A stretch of DNA of 29,821 nucleotides, from positions 1 to 29,821 of IMG/VR virus record IMGVR_UViG_3300026253_000005, one strand, 5' to 3'. Below the pieces are notes generated by a model. It was not told the DNA's origin, did not search any database, and saw only the letters and a list, made by a program, of their open reading frames with translations. Every line of letters starts with the position of its first letter. Position 1 is the first letter of the stretch. The DNA comes from a virus. The position numbers and the translations under genes were made by a program. Shown one piece after another: positions 2,297 through 22,496 of this stretch.

Positions 2297-4618
2297 ATGG
2301 AAGACGAGACTCACTACAAAGATACTGGCGTTGGCCTCTCGGGTAAACCTGTTGAAGGTACACCCGTAGGTGACGGTTCGAACGGACTGCTTCATGTCGC
2401 TTCGGTGGCTCAGATCGAAGCCGCTCAAAAGGACGCGGAAGAAATAGCCGCCCGCGCTATGCAGCAAGACGACCGGCCGATGCTCAAGAATATTGAACGC
2501 TATCTCGGCAACGTCTTCGAAGACTGCCGCGCTTTCAAAGAAGACGAGACCGACACGCAGAAGCTAATGCTCGACTCGCTCAACCGCCGCAACGCCAAAT
2601 ACGATGCTGAGAAGAACGCGAAGATCGCGGCCATCAACTCGAGCGATGTCTTTCTCGGCGTGACCGGCGTCAAGTGCCGCGCCTTTGAATCCTGGGTGCA
2701 TGACATTTACATGAATGCCAAACGCAAGCGGACCTGGGATCTCAAGCCAACCCCGATTGCCACCATCCCACCTGAAGATTCGCGCAATATTACCAAGACG
2801 GTGATGGAAGCCTATGAATATGCCCAGAACCAGGGCGCGGAAATGTCCGAAGTCGATGCCTATCAGATGGCGTCCGATATGCGGGCTGACATTATCAAGG
2901 CCGATTACGAGCTGGCTGGCGAACGCGCCGAGAATATGTCGCGCAAGATTCACGATCAGCTGACCGAAGGCGGTTGGGTCAAGGCCTTCTCTGATTGCAT
3001 CATGGATATTTCCTCCTCCAAAGCCGGCATCCTGAAAGGCCCGGTCGTGCGGCGACGCAAGATCCGCTCCGGCTGGACCGAAGACAAGAACGGCAACTCC
3101 GTGCCCAAGATCGAAATGGCCGAGATCATGACGGTGGAGCGCGTCTCACCGTTGGATTTCTTTCCCGGCCGCGCCAACGAGACCGTCAATGATGGCCCGG
3201 TCTGCGAACGCCTGACCATTTCCAGATCCTCGCTGGTAGAAAACCGCGAAGAGCCCGGCTATATCCAAAAGAACATTGAGCATATAGCCATGCACAGCAC
3301 TTTCCCGACCCAGACGCCATCCACCTTGCAATCAGAGCGAGACTTGGCCGAAGGGCGCGACACGCAGACTCCTTCATCTTCGTCAGGCCCTTCTCTCCCG
3401 GCCATCGAAATCTGGTGCAAGTGTCTGGGTCGGGACCTTATTGATTTTGGCATTATCAAGGACAACGACGGCAAGAAGCTGGACCCGTTGCTTGATTATG
3501 ACATCAACGCTATGACCATTGACGGGCTGATAGTCTACATCACGCTCAACGAAGACGAACTGGGTCGCCGGCCGTATTCCGTTTACGGATATGCCAAGGA
3601 GATCGGGGGATTCTGGTTCATGGGTATTCCTGAGCTGATTACCAGCGAACAGGATATTATTAATGCAGCCGCCCGCTCAATGGTCAACAATCTCGGCATC
3701 GCCTCCGGTCCGCAGGTCATCATCAATGATGTTAACCGCTTCCCGCCCGGTGAGGATATTACCTCGATGCACCCTTGGAAGATCTGGCAGGGCACCAACA
3801 TGGGCAGCTCGAATGCGCCGCTGGTGACCTTCTTCCAGCCGGATTCTCGTTCGGCCGAAATGCTGTCGGTCATCCGCGAAGCAACCCGCATTACGGACAG
3901 CACCCTCGAAATGCCGAGTTACAGCTATGGCAACGACAAGGTGTCTGGAGCCGGCCGCACCGCTTCGGGCTTATCCATGCTGATGGGTTCCTCCAATCGA
4001 GGCCTCAAACGGATCCTGCTGGGCATCGACCGCTATATCTTCCAGACGGTGGTCGAGCGCATGTATGACTGGAACATGAAGCATCTGGAAGACCAGTCGA
4101 TCAAGGGCGATATGAACTTCATCTCGGAAGGCATCGTCTCGCTGATCATGCGTGAGCAGCTGGCCGACCGCCGCATGGGCTTGCTGCAGGCCACCAACAA
4201 CGAATTTGATATGAAGATCCTCGGACTCGACGGCCGCGCCAAGATTCTCGGCGATGCGATCGAGGTGCTCGAATCGGACTATGACGACATTAAGCCGAGC
4301 GAAGAAAAGATTCAGCGACTGATTCAGGAGGAAACGATGCTACAGCAGCAACGGATCCAGAAGAACCAGATCGAGATCGAACGCGAGCAAGCCCTGATCG
4401 AACGCGAAGCCGCTGTCGAAATGGAGAAGATTGATCTCGAACGCCAGAAACTGATGCTCGAAGTGCAGAAAGTGGAACGGGTCGACAAGACCGCCAATCG
4501 CGAACTCGACATCCGGGCCTCCAAGCAGAGCCAGGGCATGATCGAGAAGATCTTTGAAGCCGATGCCGCCAAACAACAAGAGGTCGATCCCAATGGTCCC
4601 CCGCCCAACCAAGCGTGA
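2297..4618 (+). CDS. Portal (head-tail connector) protein, long podovirus-like form
   Basis: This would form the dodecameric ring at the capsid vertex through which DNA is packaged and ejected. It directly follows terL and is 773 aa, close to the long portals of P22- and N4-type podoviruses. The central part has portal-like features: FWFMGIPELITSEQDIINAA, and the block SGAGRTASGLSMLMG near residue 550, which is typical of the loop and helix region of such portals. From about residue 665 to 755 the chain is an extended Glu/Gln/Lys/Arg coiled coil (EIEREQALIEREAAVEMEK), likely a barrel-like extension into the capsid as in P22; that role is inference. A weak AGGA precedes the start. The last 26 bases overlap the next gene. 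Confidence 0.9.
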   Translation: MEDETHYKDTGVGLSGKPVEGTPVGDGSNGLLHVASVAQIEAAQKDAEEIAARAMQQDDRPMLKNIERYLGNVFEDCRAFKEDETDTQKLMLDSLNRRNAKYDAEKNAKIAAINSSDVFLGVTGVKCRAFESWVHDIYMNAKRKRTWDLKPTPIATIPPEDSRNITKTVMEAYEYAQNQGAEMSEVDAYQMASDMRADIIKADYELAGERAENMSRKIHDQLTEGGWVKAFSDCIMDISSSKAGILKGPVVRRRKIRSGWTEDKNGNSVPKIEMAEIMTVERVSPLDFFPGRANETVNDGPVCERLTISRSSLVENREEPGYIQKNIEHIAMHSTFPTQTPSTLQSERDLAEGRDTQTPSSSSGPSLPAIEIWCKCLGRDLIDFGIIKDNDGKKLDPLLDYDINAMTIDGLIVYITLNEDELGRRPYSVYGYAKEIGGFWFMGIPELITSEQDIINAAARSMVNNLGIASGPQVIINDVNRFPPGEDITSMHPWKIWQGTNMGSSNAPLVTFFQPDSRSAEMLSVIREATRITDSTLEMPSYSYGNDKVSGAGRTASGLSMLMGSSNRGLKRILLGIDRYIFQTVVERMYDWNMKHLEDQSIKGDMNFISEGIVSLIMREQLADRRMGLLQATNNEFDMKILGLDGRAKILGDAIEVLESDYDDIKPSEEKIQRLIQEETMLQQQRIQKNQIEIEREQALIEREAAVEMEKIDLERQKLMLEVQKVERVDKTANRELDIRASKQSQGMIEKIFEADAAKQQEVDPNGPPPNQA

Positions 4619-4820
4619 ACTCGAATCCATCAAGATGCTGGCCCAACAGGGTGAGCTCTTTAGGGAACTGGTCGGATGGATCGAGCGCTCGCTGGATGAA
4701 ACCCGCGAAGCAAATGACACCCTGGCGATTGATAAGGTCCAGCTGGGCCAGGGCCGGGCGCAGGCCCTAAGCGCCCAAGTAAAGATTTTAAGGGGATTCG
4801 TAAATACGAACTCCAACTAA
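4593..4820 (+). CDS. Small hypothetical protein between portal and scaffold (75 aa)
   Basis: The ATG at 4593 is chosen because AAGAGG at 4578-4583 sits 9 nt upstream; an ATG 39 nt earlier has no such site. The gene overlaps the portal 3' end. The product is a helical, charged 75-aa protein (KRELESIKMLAQQGELFREL at residues 7-26) with no membrane segment or signal peptide. Small helical proteins at this position occur in several phages, but I do not recognise a family. A role as head-assembly accessory is only positional inference. Confidence 0.7.
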   Translation: MVPRPTKRELESIKMLAQQGELFRELVGWIERSLDETREANDTLAIDKVQLGQGRAQALSAQVKILRGFVNTNSN

Positions 4821-4825
4821 AAGGG

Positions 4826-4869
4826 ATTCCGTTCGACGGCCCCTTGAACCGTGCATTCCGTTCGACGGC
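4826..4869 (+). repeat. Pair of 15-bp direct repeats before the scaffold gene
   Basis: ATTCCGTTCGACGGC occurs at 4826-4840 and again at 4855-4869, start to start 29 nt. Each copy contains CCGT-TCG-ACGG, which can form a tiny 4-bp stem. They fill most of the 70-nt gap between the 75-aa gene and the scaffold gene. No promoter hexamers are evident. They may be a regulatory or protein-binding site, or simply a small duplication. Confidence 0.6.
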
Positions 4870-4890
4870 GCACAAAAGAGGAAAAGTAAC

Positions 4891-5886
4891 ATGGTACCAG
4901 AAGCAGTCAGAAAGCAGGCCGAGGAAGCTGATAAGGCGCTCGATACACTTATCCAAGTACAGGATGAGAGTGCGGAGCAACCCGTCAATCCCGAAACCGC
5001 TGAGGCTATTCAGGCAAACATGGAAACGCAGCCAGGTCGCCAGCCTGCGCAGGACGAAGCTATCCAAGCAGAGTCAACCACGATAGAGGTTGATCCCGCC
5101 CAGGCGCTTCAGAATGAGCTGGATCTGGAAAGGCAGCGGAACCGTACATTGCAGGGAAGAATTGATTCGCAGTTGGCCAAGGCCCACGGCGAGAATCGTG
5201 AACTCAAGACTCAGGTTAAAGACCTTGAAGGGCGAATGGACGAATTGGCGAAAGCCGACCGGCCGCCTGGCTATCTCCGGCATATCACCGAAGAGGAAGC
5301 CGAAGGACTTGGCGATGATGTCTTGGATATCCAGAACCGAATCATCAAGGGCACACTCGAAGAAGCGCTCGAAGATGGTGACCTCAAAGATTATGTGAAT
5401 GACCTGGTGCAGCAAAGCATGGAGGCCCAAGTGGTCGATCGCGCCCCTGCGCCAGTGAATGAAGACCTCTTTTGGCAGTCCGTTGAACGGCACTACCCTG
5501 GAGCGAGACAGATTAATGAGTCCGACCAAAATTGGTTTGGTTTCCTGGGACAACACGACCCTGACAGCGGTTTAAAGAATCGCGATGTTGGTGTGCAGGC
5601 AATTGATACGAGCGACGTTGTTTCGCTGGTGGATCTGCTCAATCGCTATCGTCCGATCCAACAAGACCAACATGTTGTAGAGCCAAAGCCCGTGGCCGTG
5701 AAGCCCGAGCGAGGCGGTGCACAGCAAATCGAAACTAGTCCGGCAAAACCGAGCTTCACCAGAAGCAATGTTGAGCGGTTCTATAACGACGTTGCGCGAA
5801 ACCGCTTCCCCGGGACAAAGGAAGAAGCGACGGCTCTAGAGACTGAAATTATGGAAGCCGCCCAGGAGGGACGCATTACAGAGTAG
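4891..5886 (+). CDS. Scaffold-like capsid assembly protein
   Basis: This is an acidic 331-aa protein directly upstream of the capsid gene, the normal place for a scaffolding protein that nucleates procapsid assembly and is then expelled or degraded. Residues 1-70 are Gln/Glu-rich and probably disordered. Residues 71-122 form a coiled coil (LQNELDLERQRNRTLQGRID). Residues about 125-190 are Asp/Glu-rich. The C-terminal part is Pro/Gln/Lys-rich and ends in a helical segment (FYNDVARNRFPGTKEEATAL), where scaffolds usually bind coat protein. No protease motif is visible. The start follows AAGAGG. The assignment rests on position, charge and coiled coil, not on a recognised family signature. Confidence 0.75.
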   Translation: MVPEAVRKQAEEADKALDTLIQVQDESAEQPVNPETAEAIQANMETQPGRQPAQDEAIQAESTTIEVDPAQALQNELDLERQRNRTLQGRIDSQLAKAHGENRELKTQVKDLEGRMDELAKADRPPGYLRHITEEEAEGLGDDVLDIQNRIIKGTLEEALEDGDLKDYVNDLVQQSMEAQVVDRAPAPVNEDLFWQSVERHYPGARQINESDQNWFGFLGQHDPDSGLKNRDVGVQAIDTSDVVSLVDLLNRYRPIQQDQHVVEPKPVAVKPERGGAQQIETSPAKPSFTRSNVERFYNDVARNRFPGTKEEATALETEIMEAAQEGRITE

Positions 5887-5930
5887 TGCACTCAGGGCTG
5901 TTCCAAGCTAACTAAATCTGGAGAAATACA

Positions 5931-6875
5931 ATGGCAAAATATGATTACGCCACCACGTCGCCGAATGCAATGGCTGACTTTAACGGGACCATGAATTACA
6001 TCCCGACGCTGTACGCCGGCAAATTACTGATTAAGTTCTACGAATCGTCCGTGCTGGGTGAAATCACCAACACTGACTACGAAGGCTTGATTCGCGATCA
6101 GGGCGACACCGTCATTATCCGCAGCGTACCGACGCTGACGATCAGTGACCACAGCAAGGGCATGACTCTCAGCAACGAGAAGCCCGCTTCGGTGTCTACC
6201 ATGCTGGAGATCAACAAGGGAAAATACTGGTCCTTCGTGACCGACGACGTTGATGCCAAGCAGACCGACGTAAAGAATTTCGTCGAAGAGTGGACCAAGG
6301 ACGCGGCTTATCAGCTCCGTAATGTGATCGAGCAGTCGGTCCTGCAGTCGATTGGCGATGATTGTCATGCAGGCAATACGGGAGCTACCGCTGGTGTTCA
6401 GAGCGGCTCGTATGACCTCGGCGAGGCCGGCGCGGCGGTCACGCTGAGCAAAGGCACTGTCATCGACACCCTCATTGACTGCGGTACCGTGCTCGATGAG
6501 CAGAACCTGCCCGACGAAGGTCGTTTCTTCCTGGTTCCGCCGGCCATTTGCGGTCTGATCAAGAAGTCCGATCTGGCCGATGCCAGCATTAGCGGCGACA
6601 GCACTTCGATTGCCCGCAACGGCAAAATCGGAATGATCGATCGCTTCACGGTCTTCAAGACCGGTAACCTGCAGCAGGAGGTCCCGACCACCGATGGTGG
6701 CGCTTGGACCTGTTTGTTCGGCACCAAGGTGGCAACTACGTTTGCGACCCAGCTGATCAAGAACAAGGTGCTGGATAACCCGGACGGGTTTGGCATGTTG
6801 CATCGCGGACTGCAAGTCTTCGGCTTCAAGGTTGTAAAACCCGAAGCACTCGGAGTCCTCTACGCTAACATTTAG
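5931..6875 (+). CDS. Major capsid protein (probable HK97 fold)
   Basis: This 314-aa protein has the right size and position (after portal and scaffold) for the shell protein. The N-terminus (NAMADFNGTMNYIPTLYAGK) and the following ITNTDYEGLIRDQGDTVII stretch resemble coat proteins of podovirus and siphovirus families, with an alpha/beta composition consistent with the HK97 fold. The C-terminus ends with the strand-rich VFGFKVVKPEALGVLYANI, as in many coat proteins whose last segment packs in the P-domain. No cleavable propeptide is obvious. The start follows a GGAG 9 nt upstream. A hairpin just after the stop may punctuate the transcript. The fold is inferred, not proved. Confidence 0.85.
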   Translation: MAKYDYATTSPNAMADFNGTMNYIPTLYAGKLLIKFYESSVLGEITNTDYEGLIRDQGDTVIIRSVPTLTISDHSKGMTLSNEKPASVSTMLEINKGKYWSFVTDDVDAKQTDVKNFVEEWTKDAAYQLRNVIEQSVLQSIGDDCHAGNTGATAGVQSGSYDLGEAGAAVTLSKGTVIDTLIDCGTVLDEQNLPDEGRFFLVPPAICGLIKKSDLADASISGDSTSIARNGKIGMIDRFTVFKTGNLQQEVPTTDGGAWTCLFGTKVATTFATQLIKNKVLDNPDGFGMLHRGLQVFGFKVVKPEALGVLYANI

Positions 6876-7301: not shown

Positions 7302-9545
7302 ATGAACCGGATCGTGCCCATTCTATTGCTGGTGGCGGGAACAGCTCTGGCTGTGCCCCCCAAGAGTGTCATCTTCAAGAAGGCTTTATTTAACCCGCCG
7401 CGTATTGGAATGACCCAGTGGCTAACGGGCGGCACGACGGATGGCCTGACGCTGCCGGATTACATCGGTACCTTCTCGGCTCCGGTCATTGGCGATGTGC
7501 AGTGTTATGACTTTGATGGCGTCTATGACAATATCCGCTCCAGCGAGACGATCAATACAGACCCGATCAAGCAAAACCTTGATATGACGTTTGTCTTTAA
7601 TCCGGCCAACATCACTGGCAACAAGGTGATTGGTGGTCTTGGTAAAGATCCATGGGGTGGGCTCGGGTCTCTGATCTGGTTATCAGGCAGTAATCTTAGA
7701 TTATCTATGGAGGCGGATAATGATAGCAACTCCACCTTCCACATCGTGTCCACCTCTACCAACGTCTCTGCCGGGGTATGGTATACGGTTCGAGTGACCT
7801 ACGATGGAACGACCGCGCAGGTGTGGCTGGGCGATACTCTGGTACTAACCGACAATACAACTTGGTCTGGCGATCTTAAACTTTCTACCACGCAATGGTT
7901 CACAGTGGGCTCGGGGATTGATCACATTCACAATCACACACACTACCCCTTCGCGGGGAAGATCGCCTACGCCTCGATCAAGTATGGCCCGACCTATGTT
8001 TGCCAAGAGGGCTCCGGCGACATCGCCTATGACACCACCAGTGGCGGCAACCACGGTATAATTACGGTAAGTGCAAATGGCCTTGATACGTTCCACAGCA
8101 GCTCTGACGGTATCCCGAGCTGGAACCGCCAGAAGGGCTTTAGCGGGATGGCCTTGCTGGAAGACAATCTGGTCAACACCCGAGGGATCGTGTCGACCTA
8201 CAAGACCACCCAAACGATAGACGTTACGATCGAGGGTGTCTGGGACTCGGATAATGTAACCGCGTCTCTCGATTCGGCTGCAGGCGTGTTTGCGACGGAT
8301 TCTGGTTATTATTCGACAGGCGCTGTTACCATGCGTCGCGCCACCGCCGCCCCTTACGAAGGCCTGCGTCTCTCGATTTTTCCGATTGATCAAGCCCACT
8401 TCTCCGGCATCTATAGCACTCTGCCCGTCTTTGATGATGGCTATCACAAAATACAACTTCGGGTTGAGGGGAATCGAGTGCGGTTGTGGGTGGATGATGT
8501 GCTTGATGTTGATTACACCCATACAAATTTCCCCACCAACGCGACCTATGATTCGAAAAAAATCACTGTCAACTCCGTGAATACCAGCACCGGCAATCAG
8601 GCTTGCAAGGGCAAGCTGGCGCGCATCAAGTATATTGATGATAATTATGAAGCCGAATATCTGGCCATCAACATTGACTATGTAACGGGGCTTTGGCCGC
8701 AACAAGCGGGTGGCAACTTTACAGATCTTCAGTTCCGGCGTCGGGATGCATCAGGCAACATTACCGAAGTGGCCCCCAAAAGCCTGCGCATCCCCGCCCG
8801 TGAGCATGACGAGCTTTTAGGCGCTCTGATAGTTAATCCAGAGTTCGAGAGCTGGACCGATGCCACGACTCCCGCAAACTGGCAGAAAATAGGAATCACC
8901 TCTGAGGATAGCGTATCTCAAGTAGCCGATGGCCTTCGTTTCCAGATAAAGCAAGGTAATGCCGGACGACTCGGTGCCTCTAGTGGGTTCGGCAACATTA
9001 GAATGATCAAGAATCACACCTATCGGTTTCGGGTTGATCTGGTCTCGGTGACTTCAGGCAAGTTGTCTCTGCGGATTGATGGATCAAATCAATTCCTTAA
9101 TGAGGGCGATGTCGATGTTTATGATGACACCTTCACCGCCGCCAATAATGGCACTATGAATATCTGGCGCGGCGATCCCTCGGTGGATACAGACTTCACC
9201 ATTGCCTCCATTCAGGTCTGGGATCTCGGCATCTGCTCACCCTTGTGCGGCACCCCGGATAATGCCAATGCGATCGGCGGACCGATCAGCAGCCCGGCCG
9301 GCTTCTTCGACAACAGTAGCGGCACCAGCACCAGGCAAACCGATACAGCCTTTACGAGCGACCCCTTCTGGTCCTCTGGCGGCGTCTTGATTAACAAGAA
9401 TGCAGCTGACTTTGCCTTGTTGCCTAATACCAGTGCCACCCATAGCTCCTACACTCCGACCGGCCGCCGCATCAAGCATGTCCTGCAATACGACAACACA
9501 CAGGCCAACGATCTGACTGACCTTTACCTGGAGATTATGAAATGA
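7302..9545 (+). CDS. Exported two-LamG adhesin with carbohydrate-binding-like module
   Basis: The 747-aa product starts with a strong signal peptide (MNRIVPILLLVAGTALA, cleavage likely at residue 17). Two concanavalin/LamG-like jelly-roll domains follow at about residues 60-263 and 296-456. Typical marks are VWYTVRVTYDGTTAQVWLGD, the EGSGDIAYDTTSGGNHG turn and LRVEGNRVRLWVDDVLDVDY. Residues about 513-641 form a module like bacterial carbohydrate-binding beta-sandwiches (NPEFESWTDATTPANW; FTAANNGTMNIWRGD). It is closely related to a module in the 1500-aa fibre downstream. LamG domains in phages are usually fibre or decoration parts that bind glycans or host protein. The start is 2 nt after the preceding stop with no clear Shine-Dalgarno site, suggesting coupling. 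The substrate is unknown. Confidence 0.85.
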   Translation: MNRIVPILLLVAGTALAVPPKSVIFKKALFNPPRIGMTQWLTGGTTDGLTLPDYIGTFSAPVIGDVQCYDFDGVYDNIRSSETINTDPIKQNLDMTFVFNPANITGNKVIGGLGKDPWGGLGSLIWLSGSNLRLSMEADNDSNSTFHIVSTSTNVSAGVWYTVRVTYDGTTAQVWLGDTLVLTDNTTWSGDLKLSTTQWFTVGSGIDHIHNHTHYPFAGKIAYASIKYGPTYVCQEGSGDIAYDTTSGGNHGIITVSANGLDTFHSSSDGIPSWNRQKGFSGMALLEDNLVNTRGIVSTYKTTQTIDVTIEGVWDSDNVTASLDSAAGVFATDSGYYSTGAVTMRRATAAPYEGLRLSIFPIDQAHFSGIYSTLPVFDDGYHKIQLRVEGNRVRLWVDDVLDVDYTHTNFPTNATYDSKKITVNSVNTSTGNQACKGKLARIKYIDDNYEAEYLAINIDYVTGLWPQQAGGNFTDLQFRRRDASGNITEVAPKSLRIPAREHDELLGALIVNPEFESWTDATTPANWQKIGITSEDSVSQVADGLRFQIKQGNAGRLGASSGFGNIRMIKNHTYRFRVDLVSVTSGKLSLRIDGSNQFLNEGDVDVYDDTFTAANNGTMNIWRGDPSVDTDFTIASIQVWDLGICSPLCGTPDNANAIGGPISSPAGFFDNSSGTSTRQTDTAFTSDPFWSSGGVLINKNAADFALLPNTSATHSSYTPTGRRIKHVLQYDNTQANDLTDLYLEIMK
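8838..9223 (+). repeat. Carbohydrate-binding-like module, copy 1 (shared with the long fibre)
   Basis: This segment encodes a roughly 129-aa module whose partner copy lies at 17680-18072. Blocks are nearly identical in DNA, for example the 32 bases beginning CCAGAGTTCGAGAGCTGGAC and the stretch around TCGGTGACTTC/GGCAAGTTGTCTCTGCG. Other parts have diverged, so this looks like a dispersed domain duplication followed by divergence or partial gene conversion. Confidence 0.85.
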
Positions 9546-13323: not shown

Positions 13324-13644
13324 ATGACACCGAAGTATGTACGAAAGAAAGACAGCGCCCGCGTTCTGACTGCCACCGACGGACGGTTGAACCGCAACGA
13401 TATGTTTGCCTGCGACAAGCAGGGACGCTTTCTCAATACGCAGGAGTTTCACCTGCCCCAACCTGGCGATACCGCGCGGGAGCTGGCTGAGACCGATAAG
13501 GATTTCAAGGAGCTGCGCGAGCGGGCCCGTTCATTGAAGGTGCGCGGCTGGAACAATGCCAAGCCGAAGACGCTGGAAAAGAAGATTAAGGAAGCCGAGG
13601 CCAAGTTGGCAGAATCCGACGAAACCGACGCCACCGGGGAATAA
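13324..13644 (+). CDS. Small protein with C-terminal SAP/Rho-N-like helix-extended-helix motif (106 aa)
   Basis: The start is set at 13324 by Shine-Dalgarno spacing. Residues 1-55 are basic and then neutral without clear structure. Residues about 62-95 read FKELRERARSLKVRGWNNAK followed by PKTLEKKIKEAEAKL, a pattern like the short SAP/Rho-N/HeH nucleic-acid-binding motif (helix, turn with a Gly-aromatic, helix). Such motifs at the ends of phage head proteins are thought to contact DNA or assist packaging. It lies just upstream of an adaptor gene, consistent with a head-completion role. The motif call is moderate; the function is inferred. Confidence 0.65.
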   Translation: MTPKYVRKKDSARVLTATDGRLNRNDMFACDKQGRFLNTQEFHLPQPGDTARELAETDKDFKELRERARSLKVRGWNNAKPKTLEKKIKEAEAKLAESDETDATGE

Positions 13645-13654
13645 GGAGCTCTTA

Positions 13655-14587
13655 ATGCCGATCAAAGCAAGCAACCTGGTCAGACTCATTCGTGGGATGA
13701 TCATTGATAAAGAAGATGGCACTGCCCCGCTCAAGTTTACCGAGCGGGAAGTGGTCGATGCGATCAACGTAGCGAAGCATGACTTGTTCGCACGTCGGCC
13801 GGATGCTTTCTCTGTATCGGCATTAACCCTTACCGAGCCATCCAACATCAAGAGCGCCCGTATCAGCCTTTCGTTCCTGTACGGCGATACGACGGTCAAC
13901 TTTAGCCGCCCGATGTCTAATCTCAGCTCATCATTATCCAGCATTGGAAGCATCGAAATGGACCTGAATGCGGATGATGCAAACGGCACCGTCCTTTATA
14001 TGGGTCTCGAGGACAACACGGACTACACCAGTATCTGCATCGAGATGGGTCGATTGGTGGCCTATGTGGTCAGCAGTGCCGCAGCAGAGACCGTAAAGGT
14101 TACAGTCGATTCGAGGTTTGCCGCCACCGGCTGGTCAACCATCAGCCTGGCCCTTAGCGGCGGAACGCTTACACTTTCCGATGGACGAGGCGGGTCCGGC
14201 TCAGAGGAGTATAGTGGAGATCTGATTTCAAGTGCTTCGACGCCCAACCTGGGTTACTCCAGTATAGCAGGTGCCACCCGGTATTTCGGGGGCGCTATCG
14301 CTAATTTCAAAATCAAGGACACGATTGGCGATGGGCTGGTCTCAATTGCCTTCAATGAAGGTGTGGGTTCCCTGGTGCTGGATACGGTTACCGGCGAAAC
14401 GGCCAATGTCTATTACGGGCCTTCAGCTGAGGTCTGGAACCAAGATGACACCATCGATGCCTCCCCCTGGGCCGAGTATCCGCTGACCCTGATGGCGACT
14501 TCGATCCTGCTGGCCCAGCAATCAAAGGATGCGTACTACCGCAAGGCGGCCGACCTGAACTTCAATAAATACTTAGGGAGCATTTAA
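13655..14587 (+). CDS. Head-tail adaptor-like protein apparently split by a LamG-like domain (310 aa)
   Basis: AAGGAG precedes the ATG at 13655. Residues 1-64 resemble the N-terminal part of podovirus adaptor proteins (LVRLIRGMIIDKEDG...KFTEREVVDAINVAKHDLF, ARRPDAF). The last 45 residues resemble the C-terminal helix of the same class (YPLTLMATSILLAQQSKDAY, then YRKAADLNFNKYL). Between them, residues about 65-258 form a strand-rich domain with LamG features (ICIEMGRLVAYVV, WSTISLALSGGTLTLSD, FNEGVGSLVLDTVTGE). An insertion of a glycan-binding-type domain in an adaptor is unusual. The alternative is a fibre-anchoring protein with two helical caps. The TAATG junction couples it to the 1500-aa fibre gene downstream. 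Confidence 0.7.
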   Translation: MPIKASNLVRLIRGMIIDKEDGTAPLKFTEREVVDAINVAKHDLFARRPDAFSVSALTLTEPSNIKSARISLSFLYGDTTVNFSRPMSNLSSSLSSIGSIEMDLNADDANGTVLYMGLEDNTDYTSICIEMGRLVAYVVSSAAAETVKVTVDSRFAATGWSTISLALSGGTLTLSDGRGGSGSEEYSGDLISSASTPNLGYSSIAGATRYFGGAIANFKIKDTIGDGLVSIAFNEGVGSLVLDTVTGETANVYYGPSAEVWNQDDTIDASPWAEYPLTLMATSILLAQQSKDAYYRKAADLNFNKYLGSI

Positions 14588-17500
14588 TGGCTTACGAAAA
14601 CGCAAAGCGCATTCTGCGGAATGCCGAGATGCGAATCGCGCAGAGCGCCGAGGGCATCTACGACGAAGATATCGTGATCGGCTTCTGGGAAAACATTGAA
14701 GCCCGTTATATCGATGAATGCATCCGTTGGATGAACGAAGAGGGCAACCGGGTTGTGACCGGTCCTTCGAGCTTCTCCGATGTCGAGTTTACCGACGACC
14801 TGTATCATACCCATGCCTACTATTCCGAAGAGAACCAGCGGCTGTACCGGCTGTTCGTGCGCAATCCGATTATCTCCGACGCCCACGGGCTGGAAACGAC
14901 CAAGTGGAAGATTGCCAGCGGCCAGACCTACACCAATGGACAAAGCACACTGTCCTTGGCGATGTATAATGTCAGTCCGGAACATGCGCTGGCCCTGCAG
15001 ACAGCTCCGCTGGAAGAAATCTATACCGATGAAATCTACCTGCTGACCGGTGTCTTGCTGGATGGCGAATGGACCAGCCGGGCCCGCAAAGCGACGGTCT
15101 CCGAGAAGTCGGGTCTGTATACGATTCACTGGGCGCTGACCCGCTCGCTATCCAACGAGTTCGGTTTTATATACAGGGATGGTCTCTCGGTAATCACCGA
15201 GCTCTCAGTCGTTGACGCCTCCGAAACCCTACTGGAGGAGTTCCTCGACAAGACCTATCTAGATTCTGAAGGTAACTGGTACCATTCCGCTAACGGAACG
15301 ACCTACACCAAGCTCAATGGTAATGATGTAACGGGCGAGGCGGTCGCCTTTCCTGCCGCAGGCGCTTACAAGATTTCTGAATCAATTCCGGGCCGGCTGA
15401 TTAAAGCCAGCTCTCGTTTTGATGAACGCGAAAAGAACTGGAACCTGCAGCTCGAAGTGACCCATCGGTTATCGATCGAATCAGGATTCTTTTACAAGAG
15501 CGGCAATAACGAAACAACGATGCGGATCGTCAAGAGGGATTGCTCTCTAGAGGAGAAGGACCGTTTCTTTAACCACTACTGGTTCGATTCGAGCGGCAAC
15601 TGGTACGAGGAGGATCCTAACGATCTTGGCTTTTATAACAGAGTAAGCGGCAATGCAGTAGCGCCTAATGTTTCCATACCTGCTGATGCCGAGAAACTAA
15701 CTGTGCACGTTCCGGGTCGGATGGTGCAGGTTAAGACGGAGATCGATGCCAAGAGGCGCTCCTCGGGCGGAACTTGGGAAATTGAAGCCTATATCGTATT
15801 TAGCTCAAGCGACGGCACGCTGTCGCGCTTGGACGGCAATACCCGCATCGAAGTAGCGTCCAGCAAGGACAAGACACTTTACACAGAGAAGGGCTCCGGG
15901 CTTACCGAGACGGAATTGACCACCATTCGCAGCTACTATGATGGCCCCGCCGAAAGAGGCACACTTCAGCAACTAGAGGTGAAGCGCAACGACAACGGGA
16001 CCTTTGATTTTGTCGGCACCACTTCGACGAGAGATTCCGATGGCATATTGTCGCGCTTGGACGGCAATGATCGCCTTGAAGTAGCAACCAGTAAAGATCA
16101 GACACTCTACACCGAGAAAGGCTTCGGCTTAGACGAAGCGGAGCTGACGACCATCCGCTCCTACTACGAGGCCGCCGCTCCGGCCGGCACCATTCAGCAA
16201 CTGGAGGTGAGTCGTAATGAGGATGGCACCTTTGATTTCGTGGGTACAGTTGCCACCCGAAACTCCGATGATACGTTGACACGTTCCGGCACCAACGGCC
16301 ACATCGAAGTGGCATCGAGCAAAGACAGAACGGTCTACACCGAGAAAGGTTTTGGTTTAACCGAAGCGGAGCTAGAAACCTTCCGCGCCTACTATGAGAC
16401 CGCCGCTCCAGTCGGCACGCTCCAGCAGTTTGAAGTCCAGCGCAACGAAGACGGCACCTTTGATTTTGTCGGCACGGTTTCGACGAGGGGTTCCGACGGT
16501 ACGTTGTCTCGCTTGGATGGCAATACCCGCATTCAGGTGGCATCGAGCAAGGACAAGACACTTTACATCGAAAAGGGTTTCGGCTTAGACGAGGGGGAGC
16601 TAACAACCCTTCGCGCCTTCTATGACGGCCCGGCCCAAGCAGGCACACTCCAGCAACTGGAAGTCAAACGTAACGACGACGGGACCTTCGATTTTGTAGG
16701 TACGGTTTCGACCCGCAACTCCGACGAGACGCTGACACGTTCGAGCACCAATGGTCGCCTCGAAGTGGGGGCCAGCAAAGACACAACGGTCTATACCGAG
16801 AAGGGCTTTGGCTTAGACGAGGGGGAGTTACAAACCTTCCGCGATTTCTACGACGATCCGGCCCAGGTAGGCACGCTCCAGCAGTTGGAGGTGAGCCGTA
16901 ATGAGGACGGTACTTTCGACTTTGTAGGCACCGTTTCAACGAGGGGTTACGATGGCACATTGTCGCGTTTGGATGGTAATGATCGTATCCAAGTGGCATC
17001 CGGCAAGGATAAGACAACGTATACCGAAAAGGGGTTTGGGGTAACCGAGACGGAACTGACCACTATCCGCGACCTCTACGACGCCCCCGCTGAAAGAGGC
17101 ACCATTCAGCAACTAGAGGTGCGGCGCAACGAAGACGGAACCTTTGACTTTGTGGGAACGGTTTCGACGAGAGATTCTGACCAGACGCTGACACGGATGG
17201 ACCTCACCATCGGCGGCAGCGAAATAGCGTCCAGCAGGGACAAGACGGTCTATACCGAGAAAGGCTTTGGTTTAGACGAAGCGGAACTGGCCGCTATTCG
17301 TACCTTCTACGGCGCCACGGCCGTTGAAGGCGTGACCCAGCAGTTTGAAGTCCGGCGTAACGAGGACGGAACCTTCGATTTTGTTGGCACAAGAAGCACA
17401 AGAAACGCCAACTATACGCTGTCGCGTATGTCTGGTAACAGCCGAATTCAAGTGGCGACCAGTAAGAATAATACGCTCTACACCGAGAAAGGTTTTGGAG

Positions 17501-19089
17501 TGCCGGAGACATCGCTAACGGCGATTCGTAACCTCTACGATGATCCGGCCCCAGCCGGCACGCTCCAACAACTAGAAGTCGAACGCAATGAAGACGGTAC
17601 TTTCGATTTTATGGGTACCACTTCGACGAGAGATTCCGATGGTACGCTGTCGCGTTTAAACCCCACCTTGGTAGGCGATCCAGAGTTCGAGAGCTGGACC
17701 GATGCCACGACGCCGGCGAACTGGAGTAAAAACAGCTTCGCTGGTAATGACAGCGTAACTGAGGTTGCTAATGGAATTCGCTTTCAGATTGAACAAGGCA
17801 ATAATGGCCAGTTGAAAGCACGATCCGACTTCGGCGAAGGAAATATTGAACTAATCGCCGGGCATGAATATAAGTACCGCGCTGATCTGGCCTCGGTGAC
17901 TTCGGGCAAGTTGTCTCTGCGAATCAACGGGAGTGGACAGTTCCTTAATGAAAGCGTTGCGGGTGTTTATGAAGGCACCTTCACCGCCGCCTATAGTGGC
18001 GCTTTAACCATCTGGCGCGGTGACAGCGCCGCCGCTACGGACCTCACCATTGCCTCGGTTCAAGTCTGGGATATTGTCAATACCCGCATTCAAGTGGCAT
18101 CGAGCAAAAACAGGACAACGTATACCGAGAAAGGCTTTGGGGTGTCGGAAGAGGAACTGGATATAATCCGCGCCTTCTACGATGATCCGGCCCCGGCAGG
18201 CACCTTCCGCAAGCTGGAAGTGGACCTTAATGAAGATGGCACCTTTGATTTTGTCGGCATAGTGACTTCGGTAGCTGGCTTCGCTCACACTCTGACGCTG
18301 GGGTTGAAAAAGTTTTATATTGGCCGAGGCATGGAGAAGCCCGCCACCAGTGATCCCTCCGCCGATACCGCCCTTTATCACATCCTGTCCATTCCGAACG
18401 ACCGCAAGGTTTCCGGCCGGGTGCGGCCCGATGAGAACGACACATGGGCCTGGGACATTGAGGAACAGTTGCCGGTGGAGGTGGCAGGCGGCGGCACAAA
18501 TTCCGGCGATTCGCTGGTCACGTTTGGCCTGCAAGACCGTGAAACGGTGCAGTTGTGGGAATACCGGGGCCAGACCGCTTTACCCAATGGAGGGAGTTCC
18601 GATCTGGGGGCGTTCGCGTCGGACGGTAAGAGCGTTACCGTGGTGCGCTACAGCAACATTGGTTTGGACGAGGCTTCGCTGACCTATCGCTGGACCAAGA
18701 TCGAGACCACCTACAGTGCGCCGACTGGCCTTTTTTACAACGGCGGCAAGGCCATCAGGGAAGACGACAGCCGCATTATGTGGTCAAATGGCTCCCATCA
18801 AGCCTACGGGAGTTTCAGCTCTTATCGCGCCTTTACGCTGGATCGCCATCGGACAGTGCGGAGCCTGCAATCGCTTGAGTTTTTCGTGCGCCATCCAGAG
18901 AACAGCGACATCGCCGAGCACACCGCAATCGGCATCGCGACATATGCTGATGTTGAGCAACGCATCGTGAAGCTCGGCGAATATTTGTATGCCCTCATCC
19001 AAACGACCGTCACGAAGGAAACTTGGGCATCCGGCTCCATCAATAGTTTCGCGGTGAGTGGTCTGAATAATAATCAAGCGAGCCTATGA
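14587..19089 (+). CDS. Giant repeat-containing tail fibre or stalk protein (1500 aa)
   Basis: Residues 1-170 are a mixed N-terminal domain, probably the attachment part. Residues about 170-407 hold two divergent, longer versions of a beta-unit (GNWYHSANGTTY; GNWYEEDPNDLG; IPGRLIKA; VPGRMVQV). Residues 408-1230 carry nine tandem units of 76 aa with core phrases YTEKGFGL..EL, GTLQQLEV and NEDGTFDFVGT. A 139-aa carbohydrate-binding-like module interrupts the ninth unit (residues 1026-1164). Residues about 1232-1500 form a C-terminal domain with Trp/Tyr-rich strands. There is no signal peptide. Regular strand repeats of this kind suit an extended stalk that carries a receptor-binding head. Its start overlaps the adaptor stop, consistent with attachment at the connector. 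The family is unrecognised. Confidence 0.8.
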   Translation: MAYENAKRILRNAEMRIAQSAEGIYDEDIVIGFWENIEARYIDECIRWMNEEGNRVVTGPSSFSDVEFTDDLYHTHAYYSEENQRLYRLFVRNPIISDAHGLETTKWKIASGQTYTNGQSTLSLAMYNVSPEHALALQTAPLEEIYTDEIYLLTGVLLDGEWTSRARKATVSEKSGLYTIHWALTRSLSNEFGFIYRDGLSVITELSVVDASETLLEEFLDKTYLDSEGNWYHSANGTTYTKLNGNDVTGEAVAFPAAGAYKISESIPGRLIKASSRFDEREKNWNLQLEVTHRLSIESGFFYKSGNNETTMRIVKRDCSLEEKDRFFNHYWFDSSGNWYEEDPNDLGFYNRVSGNAVAPNVSIPADAEKLTVHVPGRMVQVKTEIDAKRRSSGGTWEIEAYIVFSSSDGTLSRLDGNTRIEVASSKDKTLYTEKGSGLTETELTTIRSYYDGPAERGTLQQLEVKRNDNGTFDFVGTTSTRDSDGILSRLDGNDRLEVATSKDQTLYTEKGFGLDEAELTTIRSYYEAAAPAGTIQQLEVSRNEDGTFDFVGTVATRNSDDTLTRSGTNGHIEVASSKDRTVYTEKGFGLTEAELETFRAYYETAAPVGTLQQFEVQRNEDGTFDFVGTVSTRGSDGTLSRLDGNTRIQVASSKDKTLYIEKGFGLDEGELTTLRAFYDGPAQAGTLQQLEVKRNDDGTFDFVGTVSTRNSDETLTRSSTNGRLEVGASKDTTVYTEKGFGLDEGELQTFRDFYDDPAQVGTLQQLEVSRNEDGTFDFVGTVSTRGYDGTLSRLDGNDRIQVASGKDKTTYTEKGFGVTETELTTIRDLYDAPAERGTIQQLEVRRNEDGTFDFVGTVSTRDSDQTLTRMDLTIGGSEIASSRDKTVYTEKGFGLDEAELAAIRTFYGATAVEGVTQQFEVRRNEDGTFDFVGTRSTRNANYTLSRMSGNSRIQVATSKNNTLYTEKGFGVPETSLTAIRNLYDDPAPAGTLQQLEVERNEDGTFDFMGTTSTRDSDGTLSRLNPTLVGDPEFESWTDATTPANWSKNSFAGNDSVTEVANGIRFQIEQGNNGQLKARSDFGEGNIELIAGHEYKYRADLASVTSGKLSLRINGSGQFLNESVAGVYEGTFTAAYSGALTIWRGDSAAATDLTIASVQVWDIVNTRIQVASSKNRTTYTEKGFGVSEEELDIIRAFYDDPAPAGTFRKLEVDLNEDGTFDFVGIVTSVAGFAHTLTLGLKKFYIGRGMEKPATSDPSADTALYHILSIPNDRKVSGRVRPDENDTWAWDIEEQLPVEVAGGGTNSGDSLVTFGLQDRETVQLWEYRGQTALPNGGSSDLGAFASDGKSVTVVRYSNIGLDEASLTYRWTKIETTYSAPTGLFYNGGKAIREDDSRIMWSNGSHQAYGSFSSYRAFTLDRHRTVRSLQSLEFFVRHPENSDIAEHTAIGIATYADVEQRIVKLGEYLYALIQTTVTKETWASGSINSFAVSGLNNNQASL
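15808..18276 (+). repeat. Nine tandem 228-bp coding repeats
   Basis: Unit boundaries by the SDGTLSR/TRSTNG phrase: 15808, 16036, 16264, 16492, 16720, 16948, 17176 (this unit is 231 bp), 17407, and 17635 (unit nine, split by an insert). Each unit is 76 codons. Two subtypes alternate at units 2-6: TLSRLDGN (units 2, 4, 6) and TLTRS.TNG (units 3, 5). This indicates expansion partly by two-unit steps. Units stay in frame and are conserved at protein level but diverged in DNA. Confidence 0.9.
17662..18078 (+). repeat. Carbohydrate-binding-like module inserted in repeat nine (copy 2)
   Basis: The 139-codon insert lies between SDGTLSRLN and NTRIQVASSK, which are contiguous in the other units. The core 17680-18072 matches 8838-9223 in the exported adhesin, with NPEFESW/DPEFESWTDATTPANW, SVTSGKLSLRI.GS.QFLNE and FTAA..G...IWRGD. 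The insertion is precise and keeps the frame. Confidence 0.9.
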
Positions 19090-19110: not shown

Positions 19111-19884
19111 ATGCTAGATGATGACCTGAACGAAAATGAATTGGGGCAGAACGACTGGAAGGACCCCCGTTTGGTTCGTCCCAGCCAAGATATCGAAGAG
19201 GAGCGTGGATCGCAAGAATCGGATGCGACGACCCGGCTTGTCGGCGGCGGCGTTCGCATTCAGCGGCGGGGCGGAGAGATGGTTGGAGCCTCCATCAAGG
19301 GCGCGGTGCGCTTCGGCGGACAGATCCTCACGAAAAAGCAGTTGCGCGGTTCCGCCGCCTACAAGGCGCTGGACAAGAAAGAACGCAAAGCAATCGACCA
19401 GCAGTTAAAGCAAGGCGTTCAGCTTACGGAAAAGGAGAGGTCCAATCTCCTGACCGAAGACGGAGAGTTCAAAAAGGGTTCCGACAAGAACCTCGATGCC
19501 GTCGCTGATTCTCTGAATCGCGCAACCGCCAAGGACGAGCTGGTGGAGCGGATGAAGCAAAAGGTGACGGAGTTTCAGGCGGCGACGGCACCCGCGCTGG
19601 ACGGCTCCGGCAAGTCCGTTGCTGAGAAGCTGAAGGAGGCACTGGATAAGGCGAACGACGGCGCACTGGAGGATGCGGTTCCCGTTTTGACCATGGGCGA
19701 GGTGATGTCGGCCATCGAAGAGGCGCTGAATCAATTAGCAGCTTCGATATCGGCGACTGCACTCCCCGCTCTGCCGGCTGACGGCGACTGGGTGCTGGTG
19801 GGGAATAATGCCGGCCAGCTTGAGTGGATGGACTATCTTGATTTCGTGGATGAGCTGGAGTTGGACTGGGAGGCGGCGCAGTAA
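19111..19884 (+). CDS. Fibre-associated or tail protein, acidic and helical (257 aa)
   Basis: The first 45 residues are acidic (LDDDLNENELGQNDW) with a disordered look. Residues 46-75 are a Gly/Arg-rich strand region (VGGGVRIQRRGGEMVGASIK). The middle is helical and charged. Residues about 195-215 form a helix (VMSAIEEALNQLAASIS), followed by LPALPADGDWVLVGNNAGQL-EW (218-239), a phrase typical of phage fibre proteins just before the tip or trimerisation region. No enzyme motif is present. The start has only a weak GGCGAG. It is coupled by TAATG to the aromatic-rich protein downstream. A joint role as a short fibre or tail-tip assembly is inference. Confidence 0.7.
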   Translation: MLDDDLNENELGQNDWKDPRLVRPSQDIEEERGSQESDATTRLVGGGVRIQRRGGEMVGASIKGAVRFGGQILTKKQLRGSAAYKALDKKERKAIDQQLKQGVQLTEKERSNLLTEDGEFKKGSDKNLDAVADSLNRATAKDELVERMKQKVTEFQAATAPALDGSGKSVAEKLKEALDKANDGALEDAVPVLTMGEVMSAIEEALNQLAASISATALPALPADGDWVLVGNNAGQLEWMDYLDFVDELELDWEAAQ

Positions 19885-20837
19885 TGCCTAGTACAATTCC
19901 AAAGGCGGTAAAAAACGCGGCAGGCGGGGATGCGTTACTTTCGCGCAACGATGTCTTTAATGAGGTCATGCGGCGCGGGGCACAGATTGTTGAGGAGTCG
20001 GACAGCGGTCTCCCCGGCCCGGACGTTAAATCCTTGCTGGTACTGGCGAAAGGCGTTCTGACCGGGGAAAGCTTTGAGTGGTGGCAGTGGCTGGACGTGG
20101 TTGATGATCTAGGAAAGACGGGCTACATCTGGAAGTTCCCGAATAACGACGCGGGATCGGTCCTCCTCCTGCACTATCCCCAGACTTCCCATGAAAAAAA
20201 GCAAACAACGAAGCACATCTTCTATGCCCTTTATATCACTGCGTTTACTACTCATCAGCAGGCCCATTGGACACCCATCGAAAGGCAGCAATACTTTCCC
20301 GGTCATAACCTGCCGGGCACGACGACTTGGTATGGAGAGTACTACCCCGGCGCTTATGTCCCTCCGTCGACTTATACTTGGATGGATACCATCTTGGTAG
20401 TAGAGGCTTGGAATTATAATCCCGGCCAGAGTATTATCATAGACTTTGAATACCAATTCGAATGGATGTGGTATCAAACAACATACGTCGAAAAATTTGT
20501 CTACCTTAACATAGATCAAGCAGGCCTTGCCCCCCGTCCCTTTTTTCGTGCGGACAATTATTACAACGGCACCGTGTCGGCGGTGGGCTTCAAAAAGAAA
20601 TATACCGATATCTATCTGTGGACAGGTCTCGAGTATACCGTCTGGACGAATGGATCGGGCGGGTGGGGGTCGTCATCCTCGCCTTCGGGGTACTACACGG
20701 CAGTCTGGAAATGGGAAAGTACGTCCATCACCGTGCAGTTCCATGTCCCGACCGCCAGTAACGAGCTGGCCGTGCAAGGGAACTGGGGCACGCATACGGA
20801 CACGCCCTCATGGGCCACCAACATGAGATATAATTAA
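19884..20837 (+). CDS. Aromatic-rich tail-tip or fibre protein (317 aa)
   Basis: The ATG overlaps the previous stop and GGGAGG sits about 10 nt before it. Of 317 residues I count 23 Tyr and 17 Trp, concentrated in residues about 95-290 (TTTWYGEYYPGAYVPPSTYT; EYQFEWMWYQTTYVEK). The N-terminus (1-60) is a helical linker and the end is Asn/Gly-rich (ELAVQGNWGTHTDTPSWATN). The composition is that of a beta-rich carbohydrate-binding tip, where stacked aromatics grip sugar rings. There is no signal peptide. It immediately precedes the sulfotransferase gene, so it is one candidate substrate. The family is unrecognised. Confidence 0.7.
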   Translation: MPSTIPKAVKNAAGGDALLSRNDVFNEVMRRGAQIVEESDSGLPGPDVKSLLVLAKGVLTGESFEWWQWLDVVDDLGKTGYIWKFPNNDAGSVLLLHYPQTSHEKKQTTKHIFYALYITAFTTHQQAHWTPIERQQYFPGHNLPGTTTWYGEYYPGAYVPPSTYTWMDTILVVEAWNYNPGQSIIIDFEYQFEWMWYQTTYVEKFVYLNIDQAGLAPRPFFRADNYYNGTVSAVGFKKKYTDIYLWTGLEYTVWTNGSGGWGSSSSPSGYYTAVWKWESTSITVQFHVPTASNELAVQGNWGTHTDTPSWATNMRYN

Positions 20838-20861: not shown

Positions 20862-21662
20862 ATGGATACGGAAAAAAGAATGGTAACGAGCGAGATTGAG
20901 GCGCTGGACAAGATGATCTTTGTGGGGACCTGTCCCCGGTCGGGATCGAGTATGATCTGTGGCGTCTTAGAACGGTGTGGAGCCTTCAGCGGCATTACCA
21001 ACGGGGCCACGGCGGCCAATGAGCGCGGACAGTATGAGAACGGGCAGATGAATGCGGCGCTGTTCGGTTCGGCGTTTGAGGCAACGGGCGCGGGGGGCAA
21101 CATTCGCGTCCTGCGCACTCTGCAAGATGCGGGGGCCCTACCGCGTATTGATTATATCGAAGCGCGGATCACGATGCTGATGCGCAATCAGGGCTACACC
21201 TCCGGCGCGGCCTACTTCAAGGGCGGCAACTTTCTGTATTTCTTTGATCAGATCATCGATCAAATGCCGGATGCGCCGTGGGTACTGCCGGTGCGTGACA
21301 AGAAGGAAATCCGACGCTCCATGCGCCGGGTTGGCATGGCTCAGACCGACGAGGAAAGGGATTTGCTGATCGATGCCTACCGGGCCTGCTACGACTTGAT
21401 CGAGGCAAAGGCGAAGGAGGTCTACCTGATCGACACCAACAAAGTGAAGGACGGCGACTTTACGCAGATCAAAGCCGCTGTCGAGGCGATGGGCATGATA
21501 TGGAACCAGGAAGAGGTCGAGGAATGGATCGACCCTGAACTGTGGGGCCGAGGTGCGGAGGATTTCCCGACCGGATTTGGCCCCACTTCGGACCGGCAAG
21601 AGCGCAGGGACGGCCGAGCGCAGAGACGCCGCCAGCGTGGGCGGCCGCAGAGCCGCACCTAA
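20862..21662 (+). CDS. PAPS-dependent sulfotransferase-like protein
   Basis: Residues 18-32 carry the 5'-phosphosulfate loop: FVGTCPRSGSSM, with P25-R26-S27-G28-S29-S30. Residues 145-153 (RDKKEIRRS) match the 3'-phosphate-binding pattern R-x3-[DE]-x3-S. Between them, ERGQYEN (55-61) resembles the N-x-x-G-x-x-E-[DN] region of bacterial sulfotransferase-like proteins; Glu59 could be the base. There is no His anywhere in the protein, so a His-based mechanism is excluded. It would move sulfate from PAPS to a hydroxyl on a glycan, tyrosine or lipid; the acceptor is unknown. The last 24 residues are Arg-rich and may be a frame artefact, since the +1 frame continues with a Gly/Ala/Pro tail to 21717. 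AGGAG precedes the start. It lies between fibre and adaptor genes. Confidence 0.8.
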   Translation: MDTEKRMVTSEIEALDKMIFVGTCPRSGSSMICGVLERCGAFSGITNGATAANERGQYENGQMNAALFGSAFEATGAGGNIRVLRTLQDAGALPRIDYIEARITMLMRNQGYTSGAAYFKGGNFLYFFDQIIDQMPDAPWVLPVRDKKEIRRSMRRVGMAQTDEERDLLIDAYRACYDLIEAKAKEVYLIDTNKVKDGDFTQIKAAVEAMGMIWNQEEVEEWIDPELWGRGAEDFPTGFGPTSDRQERRDGRAQRRRQRGRPQSRT

Positions 21663-21836: not shown

Positions 21837-22496
21837 ATGGGAATAAAATCAGACGCCAAGGCGTTCGCCATCCTGGGCATTGGCAAGGGCGGACAAATCT
21901 CGCCCGCGCTACTCGATGAATATGCCAACATGGGCATGCGCCGCTTTTACCTGGAGTCGCTGACGCTCAGGCTGCCGGTCTACATCAGCGAGGTAGTGGA
22001 TCAAGCCGAGTACGACCTACCGAGTCCGGCTATCAGTCCGCTGTCACCCGACTGTGCTTTGATCAGTCTAAGCCGCATTACCTATTCCAATCCATCGACG
22101 CCCTCTTACCAGGACATTGTATCCCGCGTTCCAATCAGTCCGGCCTCTTTCTCCATCAAGGCCACCGATGAACACGCGCTGGCTGAATGGAAATTGCGAT
22201 TGCTACAGAAGCCTTCTCAGAGCCGCGTTAGCTCACTGGAGCTTATCCAGGCGTATTCCTCGACATCAGACGATTATGTACCGGTTTGGGTGCTCGGCGA
22301 TGCGAGAGAGGCCGTTATGGCCTTTGTTCGCTATATGCTCTTTTCAGAACCCGGCAAGCCCTGGACCGCCCCCGAAGCAGCTTCATCTGAGATGGGCAAG
22401 TTTATGGCGCATGTCGGACGAGCCCGCATTGCAGCTGACCGCGACTTTATCAAGAAGGACCTGACCGCAAGTCCTCGTATTAAATTTACCCTGTAA
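21837..22496 (+). CDS. Adaptor-like virion protein (219 aa)
   Basis: GGAG lies 9 nt before the ATG. The product has the layout of podovirus head-tail adaptor proteins: an N-terminal helical part (FAILGIGKGGQISPALLDEY), a beta-rich middle (VVDQAEYDLPSPAISPLSPD and ISLSRITYS), and a C-terminal helical part (AREAVMAFVRYMLFSEPGKP...AEASSEMGKFMAHVGRAR-like). The C-terminal helices resemble the end of adaptors that dock on portal clip regions. It is the second adaptor-type protein in the window, the other being at 13655. No membrane segment or signal is present. The assignment is by overall pattern and needs a structure-level check. Confidence 0.6.
   Translation: MGIKSDAKAFAILGIGKGGQISPALLDEYANMGMRRFYLESLTLRLPVYISEVVDQAEYDLPSPAISPLSPDCALISLSRITYSNPSTPSYQDIVSRVPISPASFSIKATDEHALAEWKLRLLQKPSQSRVSSLELIQAYSSTSDDYVPVWVLGDAREAVMAFVRYMLFSEPGKPWTAPEAASSEMGKFMAHVGRARIAADRDFIKKDLTASPRIKFTL

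Follow-up and report, generated by a model that had tools for sequence, protein, structure and literature searches.

A divergent sulfotransferase-fold protein encoded among the structural genes of an uncultured podovirus-like phage

Earlier work has counted phage-encoded sulfotransferases among the auxiliary metabolic genes (PMC8290583, PMC10829341). An excerpt of another report places them in HMO-2011-type contigs of OM43 phages and in cyanophage S-SRM01 and calls their function unclear (PMC10580990). Phage sulfotransferases are therefore known, and a fixed place for them in the structural module appears to be undescribed in the open-licence papers searched, among which we found no account of a sulfotransferase lying within a structural module. 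The present work deals with such a gene in a 29.8-kb IMG/VR record, a fragment analysed at its full length and referred to here as the window. The terminase, podovirus-type portal and capsid genes of the window are related to those of HMO-2011-type and rhizobium podophages. The gene product, P0001, is compared with its relatives in sequence, predicted structure and genomic setting, and the features discussed are collected in Table 1.

Table 1. Features of the window, with positions counted from its first nucleotide
Feature	Position	Strand	Basis
Gene just upstream of P0001, candidate substrate	19884..20837	+	7.3% Tyr; no family match
Sulfotransferase-fold protein P0001	20862..21662	+	266 aa; profile, alignment, model, Foldseek
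Beta-1 and 5'-phosphosulfate-binding (5'-PSB) loop, residues 18-30, MIFVGTCPRSGSS	20913..20951	+	sequence motif, invariance, model
N53-x2-G56-x2-E59-N60 motif with proposed catalytic base Glu59	21018..21041	+	invariance in 58 sequences
Lys120	21219..21221	+	invariant; HMMER-aligned with conserved Lys of TPST
3'-phosphate-binding (3'-PB) motif R145...S153	21294..21320	+	invariance, model
Arg-rich C-terminal extension, residues 234-266	21561..21659	+	mostly or entirely absent from relatives; low confidence
Downstream gene, likely adaptor or virion structural protein	21837..22496	+	phrog_437; position conserved in syntenic relatives

P0001 and its family

The open reading frame of P0001 runs from an ATG at 20862 to a stop at 21662, and a Shine-Dalgarno-like AGGAG lying 5' of the ATG is a plausible ribosome-binding site. 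A preliminary description, made from the sequence alone, had read the product as a sulfotransferase because of the motifs PRSGSS at residues 25-30 and R145-x3-E149-x3-S153, and had pointed to a complete lack of histidine. All three observations are accurate: P25-R-S-G-S-S30 and R145-D-K-K-E149-I-R-R-S153 are present and the protein contains no His. This reading was ahead of automatic annotation, since curated single libraries give P0001 only a weak signal. Pfam families Sulfotransfer_4 (E=0.034) and Sulfotransfer_3 (PF13469, E=0.17) both score under their cut-offs, the latter with 12.6 against a curated 27 bits; the PHROG search of P0001 returned nothing informative and that of NCBIfam zero matches. 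The C-terminal extension is occupied in 32 of 57 aligned relatives at residue 235, in 2/57 at residue 250 and in 0/57 at residue 260, and is modelled with a pLDDT of 45-72. Between 21502 and 21717 the +1 frame stays open beyond the end of P0001 and finishes in a Pro/Ala-rich stretch. A frameshift near the end of the gene, genuine or assembly-derived, is possible and would lie outside the conserved domain.

Direct searches of viral contigs, phage records and bacterial genomes with P0001 yielded zero homologues, as did searches with PF13469 and P0001 of 50 contigs whose capsid is related to that of the window. Homologues were reached through a motif alignment followed by iteration. A consensus-letter query was used solely to locate a sequence, L082, which then seeded the motif search. 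This record (OQ572406.1, 'Pseudomonas phage Y4', unverified) was rejected as a phage carrier, being similar to a bacterial glycan locus; one end of it holds a glycosyltransferase gene, a sulfotransferase-like gene and an APS-kinase-like open reading frame. The N-terminal motifs of P0001 aligned with a bacterial-type sulfotransferase retrieved two phage proteins, L108 and L109 (51% and 38% identity over 45-48 aligned residues), and with a three-sequence alignment 232 related proteins were then detected in viral contigs, of which 80 were collected. An alignment-based scan of bacterial genomes, run with two short patterns only, gave zero confirmed relatives. The final profile consists of 91 matches in IMG/VR viral contigs; P0001 belonged to the first seed, so that the iteration started there, and the final model is made of other proteins only. 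It recovers P0001 over residues 18-228 with E=2e-48 (150 bits).

Sulfotransfer_3 is matched by 57 of the 58 family members (E up to 0.1; best 1.2e-10), with members such as those from contigs L144 and L174 above its curated cut-off, and the matches of a profile search of the PDB are the tyrosylprotein sulfotransferases (TPSTs) TPST1/2 (E 2e-5). In the tree, P0001 groups with the phage head-tail family, apart from bacterial-type and other phage sulfotransferases (100/99 branch). It falls outside the 57-member core clade and neighbours second-copy paralogues, on a long branch that makes its exact placement unsure. P0001 also deviates at two near-invariant family sites, where K69 is replaced by Gly and R144 by Val. 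Because of these substitutions and of the long branch outside the core clade, its substrate may differ from that of the other members.

PAPS-binding site and predicted fold

In the alignment of 58 sequences, the invariant residues comprise R26, S27, G28 and S30 of the 5'-PSB loop, N53, G56, E59 and N60, K120, the pair R145 and S153 placed eight residues apart, and a few structural positions. The same alignment served as AlphaFold input for the final model (pLDDT 84.2, pTM 0.80), which replaced an uninformative single-sequence prediction (pLDDT 37). In this model the loop R26-S-G-S-S is preceded by a strand (17-21) with a helix (27-38) next, and the 3'-PB motif has a strand (140-144) and a helix (147-157) in its surroundings. 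In the HMMER alignment, R26, K120, R145 and S153 fall on the corresponding residues of TPST1; Glu59 sits between the aligned blocks, and we therefore only infer its equivalence with the TPST1 glutamate. A glutamate acts as the catalytic base in TPSTs and in some heparan-sulfate sulfotransferases (PMC9372746, PMC11625862). This known usage, together with an invariance of 58/58, lends support to Glu59 as the putative base, the most likely one in the earlier proposal.

A structure search had been suggested in the preliminary description as a check, and the P0001 model does match the sulfotransferase fold with TPSTs on top. In the Foldseek comparison with the PDB, the first thirteen matches are TPSTs (E 2.7e-6 to 1.6e-4), the top ones with PAP bound (prob 1.00), at modest TM-scores of 0.46-0.54. 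Other sulfotransferases and, weakly, P-loop nucleotide kinases rank below them. The best match in a viral-structure library shares 29% identity with P0001 (E=4.5e-14, TM 0.74/0.83) and is followed by several annotated viral sulfotransferases. Adenylate and dephospho-CoA kinases figure among the lower-ranked fold matches, and these, with the loss of two near-invariant residues, would suit either a small-molecule kinase of the P-loop type or an inactivated sulfotransferase-like protein. Such an identity is highly improbable, as the Walker A signature GK[ST] is absent from P0001, its PAPS-site residues are all retained and the matching sequence families are sulfotransferases. The match to a profile free of P0001, the invariance of the PAPS-site residues and the TPST fold matches concur: about as firmly as sequence and modelling allow, P0001 is a real, divergent sulfotransferase, with a well supported predicted fold and PAPS site.

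Genomic setting

All structural genes considered in the window lie on the + strand, and the order of the genes starting at 13556 and 14587, the sulfotransferase slot and the genes starting at 21837 and 25204 is kept in relatives L083-L090 and L107 where these are covered. This co-directional and conserved arrangement upholds in outline the earlier statement that the enzyme lies among tail genes. The more specific labels given to its neighbours, 'fibre/tip' and 'adaptor', are weakly supported: the upstream gene matches no family, and the downstream product corresponds to phrog_437 ('virion structural protein') at E=0.01, with homologues in L083, L087, L089 and L107. Elsewhere in the window, positions 14587-19089 encode a 1500-aa protein made mostly of repeats of one unit; it has a domain in common (phmmer about 4e-51) with a 747-aa protein (7302-9545) that starts in the manner of a signal peptide and matches Laminin_G.

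The content of the slot differs among these relatives. L107 carries two genes there, one for a GT2 protein and one for a fusion in which a GlcNAc-transferase domain (PF11397, E=1.6e-49) is followed at the C-terminus by Sulfotransfer_2 (24.6 bits against a cut-off of 22), both domains exceeding their cut-offs. In L083 and L087 the slot encodes a GT2 protein with a C-terminal domain that is similar to sulfotransferases in motifs only. The C-terminal part of the slot GT2 proteins (L083, L087 and the first gene of L107) was discarded as a sulfotransferase, profile comparison assigning it a probability of 0.3%, and no solved relative of it was found. No enzyme was recognised in the slot of L089. 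In the lineage of the window the slot tends to favour glycan-modifying enzymes, yet it is variable.

The main family occupies a nearly fixed position. In uncultured siphovirus-like contigs, its gene has the major capsid gene on one side and the head-tail connector genes on the other, and a connector gene is found at +1 or +2 of the sulfotransferase in 48 of the 54 loci with parsed neighbours. The gene run of these 54 loci is mostly on the + strand; the major capsid gene stands upstream where the contig extends that far, and downstream of the connector come genes for the neck, the head-tail connector, the major tail protein, a chaperone and the tape measure. In a reverse test, loci were collected by their head-tail connector gene and the family was found upstream in 64/67. 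By contig name, 17 of these 67 already belonged to the sulfotransferase-selected set, which leaves about 47/50, some of the collected loci being near-duplicates; since the connector seeds came from gene-bearing viruses, the test measures constancy within the group and not among all tailed phages. The enzyme is also better conserved than its neighbours: its pairwise identities have a median of 51% and a minimum of 39% and are higher than those of the capsid (median 46%), the connectors (33-37%) and the tail protein. In two cultured capsid relatives, Brevundimonas phage MaInes and Halorubrum phage Hardycor1, the capsid and connector genes follow this order and no enzyme cassette is annotated. 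In a related contig, L103, an open reading frame (4895-5812) just upstream of the capsid gene resembles by eye a LAGLIDADG-like homing endonuclease. P0001 itself is off the position between capsid and siphovirus connector: the window is podovirus-like, and the gene precedes the possible adaptor gene at 21837, distant from the capsid gene.

Genes for sugar metabolism and putative PAPS synthesis accompany several family members. Upstream of the L174 member are genes for a zinc dehydrogenase, a split transketolase, a short-chain dehydrogenase and a methyltransferase/GT9-like protein, with an FkbM methyltransferase just under cut-off, and L144 encodes glycosyltransferases of the GT2 and GT7N types as well as radical SAM proteins; the number of sugar genes is approximate, some of the profiles, such as MT_GT9, being loose. 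The split transketolase lies inside structural clusters, in the capsid-to-connector interval (L174, 3443-4731), and its halves also occur in L124, L130 and L180. In L144, positions 4157-6166 encode a radical-SAM-type protein that has a SPASM domain and, from a Pfam match under cut-off, apparently an intein splicing domain as well. An APS-kinase-like gene adjoins the sulfotransferase in 14 loci, as detected by a profile of ten such genes. These ten small genes (L134, L124, L130, L153, L160, L162, L168, L175, L187 and L191) all score above the Pfam cut-off (E 3e-13 to 8e-19); their length falls short of that of standard APS kinases, and they score well under NCBIfam cut-offs (two tested). As putative PAPS makers, judged from their sequences, they still tie the sulfotransferase family to PAPS. 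The window itself shows neither a recognised glycosyltransferase nor a recognised APS kinase.

Proposed role and comparison with known systems

P0001 is probably a late PAPS-dependent sulfotransferase that acts on a virion protein or on its glycan. Encoded inside the virion structural block, it would presumably be made late together with it. PAPS would be held by the 5'-PSB loop (R26-SGSS) and the 3'-PB residues R145 and S153, Glu59 would deprotonate the acceptor hydroxyl, and Arg26 and Lys120 would stabilise the transferred sulfate, by analogy with TPSTs. The acceptor is most probably either a structural protein of the phage or, the likelier of the two, a sugar carried by that protein, and the resulting sulfated decoration of the particle might serve adsorption, shielding or stability. 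We infer the activity, substrate, late expression and purpose of P0001, and with moderate confidence take modification of the virion, probably through a glycan, as the interpretation that best fits the context. The divergence of P0001, the modest TM-scores to TPSTs, the lack of a recognised glycosyltransferase or APS kinase in the window, itself a fragment, and the different content of the slot in syntenic relatives weigh against it. The preliminary description had listed a virion fibre, exported adhesins and host glycans as possible targets; genome context favours a virion protein or its glycan over the other two. Modification of the particle is also preferred to auxiliary metabolism because of the fixed place in the structural module, the strong conservation and the neighbouring sugar and PAPS-making-like genes.

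One form of virion modification, the sulfation of protein tyrosines, for instance in the product of 19884-20837, deserves separate consideration. TPST1/2 are the closest solved relatives of P0001 by both profile and fold, the putative Glu and Lys catalytic pattern agrees with theirs, and the upstream product is the most Tyr-rich among the window proteins tested. Sulfotransfer_3 is broad, however, and a TPST top match therefore tells little about the acceptor; the upstream product has just three acidic-Tyr pairs and no homologue detected in the syntenic relatives searched, and sugar genes adjoin family members in other phages. We regard tyrosine sulfation as unlikely.

Phage enzymes that convert the serotype of their host are established, and bacterial glycan loci, to judge from L082, also combine glycosyltransferase, sulfotransferase and APS kinase genes. 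P0001 could accordingly act in the infected cell on a glycan or lipid of the host surface, for example to block superinfection or alter adsorption, and leave the virion as it is. The family is nevertheless bound to the structural module, whose orientation it shares, and the sequence of P0001 has no evident membrane anchor or signal peptide; a host target seems to us as improbable as the tyrosines.

Virion sulfation by P0001 may belong to a wider phenomenon, which we propose tentatively and with less assurance than the role of P0001 itself. Among uncultured tailed phages, a large group may build sulfated virions by means of a sulfotransferase that is a core head-tail gene, better conserved than the capsid protein, in partnership with phage sugar genes and sometimes with an APS kinase feeding it PAPS, a divergent form having spread to podovirus-like phages including that of the window. 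If this is true, many environmental phages would have a sulfated surface, which bears on their adsorption, charge, stability and recognition.

Among known systems, Sulfotransfer_3 (PF13469) has both PAPS motifs, the fold and the length in common with the family. TPST1 and TPST2 (3ap1, 5wrj) are the best profile and fold match, and their conserved Lys and, as a putative base, a Glu also occur in P0001, which differs from them by an identity of about 14-19% and by lacking a Golgi membrane anchor. The sulfotransferases of HMO-2011-type OM43 phages and S-SRM01, as they appear in the excerpt cited above (PMC10580990), and that of S-SCSM1 (BFVD) are likewise phage-encoded and of Sulfotransfer_3 type; that excerpt does not connect them with a constant position among the structural genes, and the S-SCSM1 protein matches the P0001 fold at E=3e-4 only. 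The L107 fusion occupies the equivalent slot in the gene order of the window, with a sulfotransferase that belongs to another family and is joined to a glycosyltransferase.
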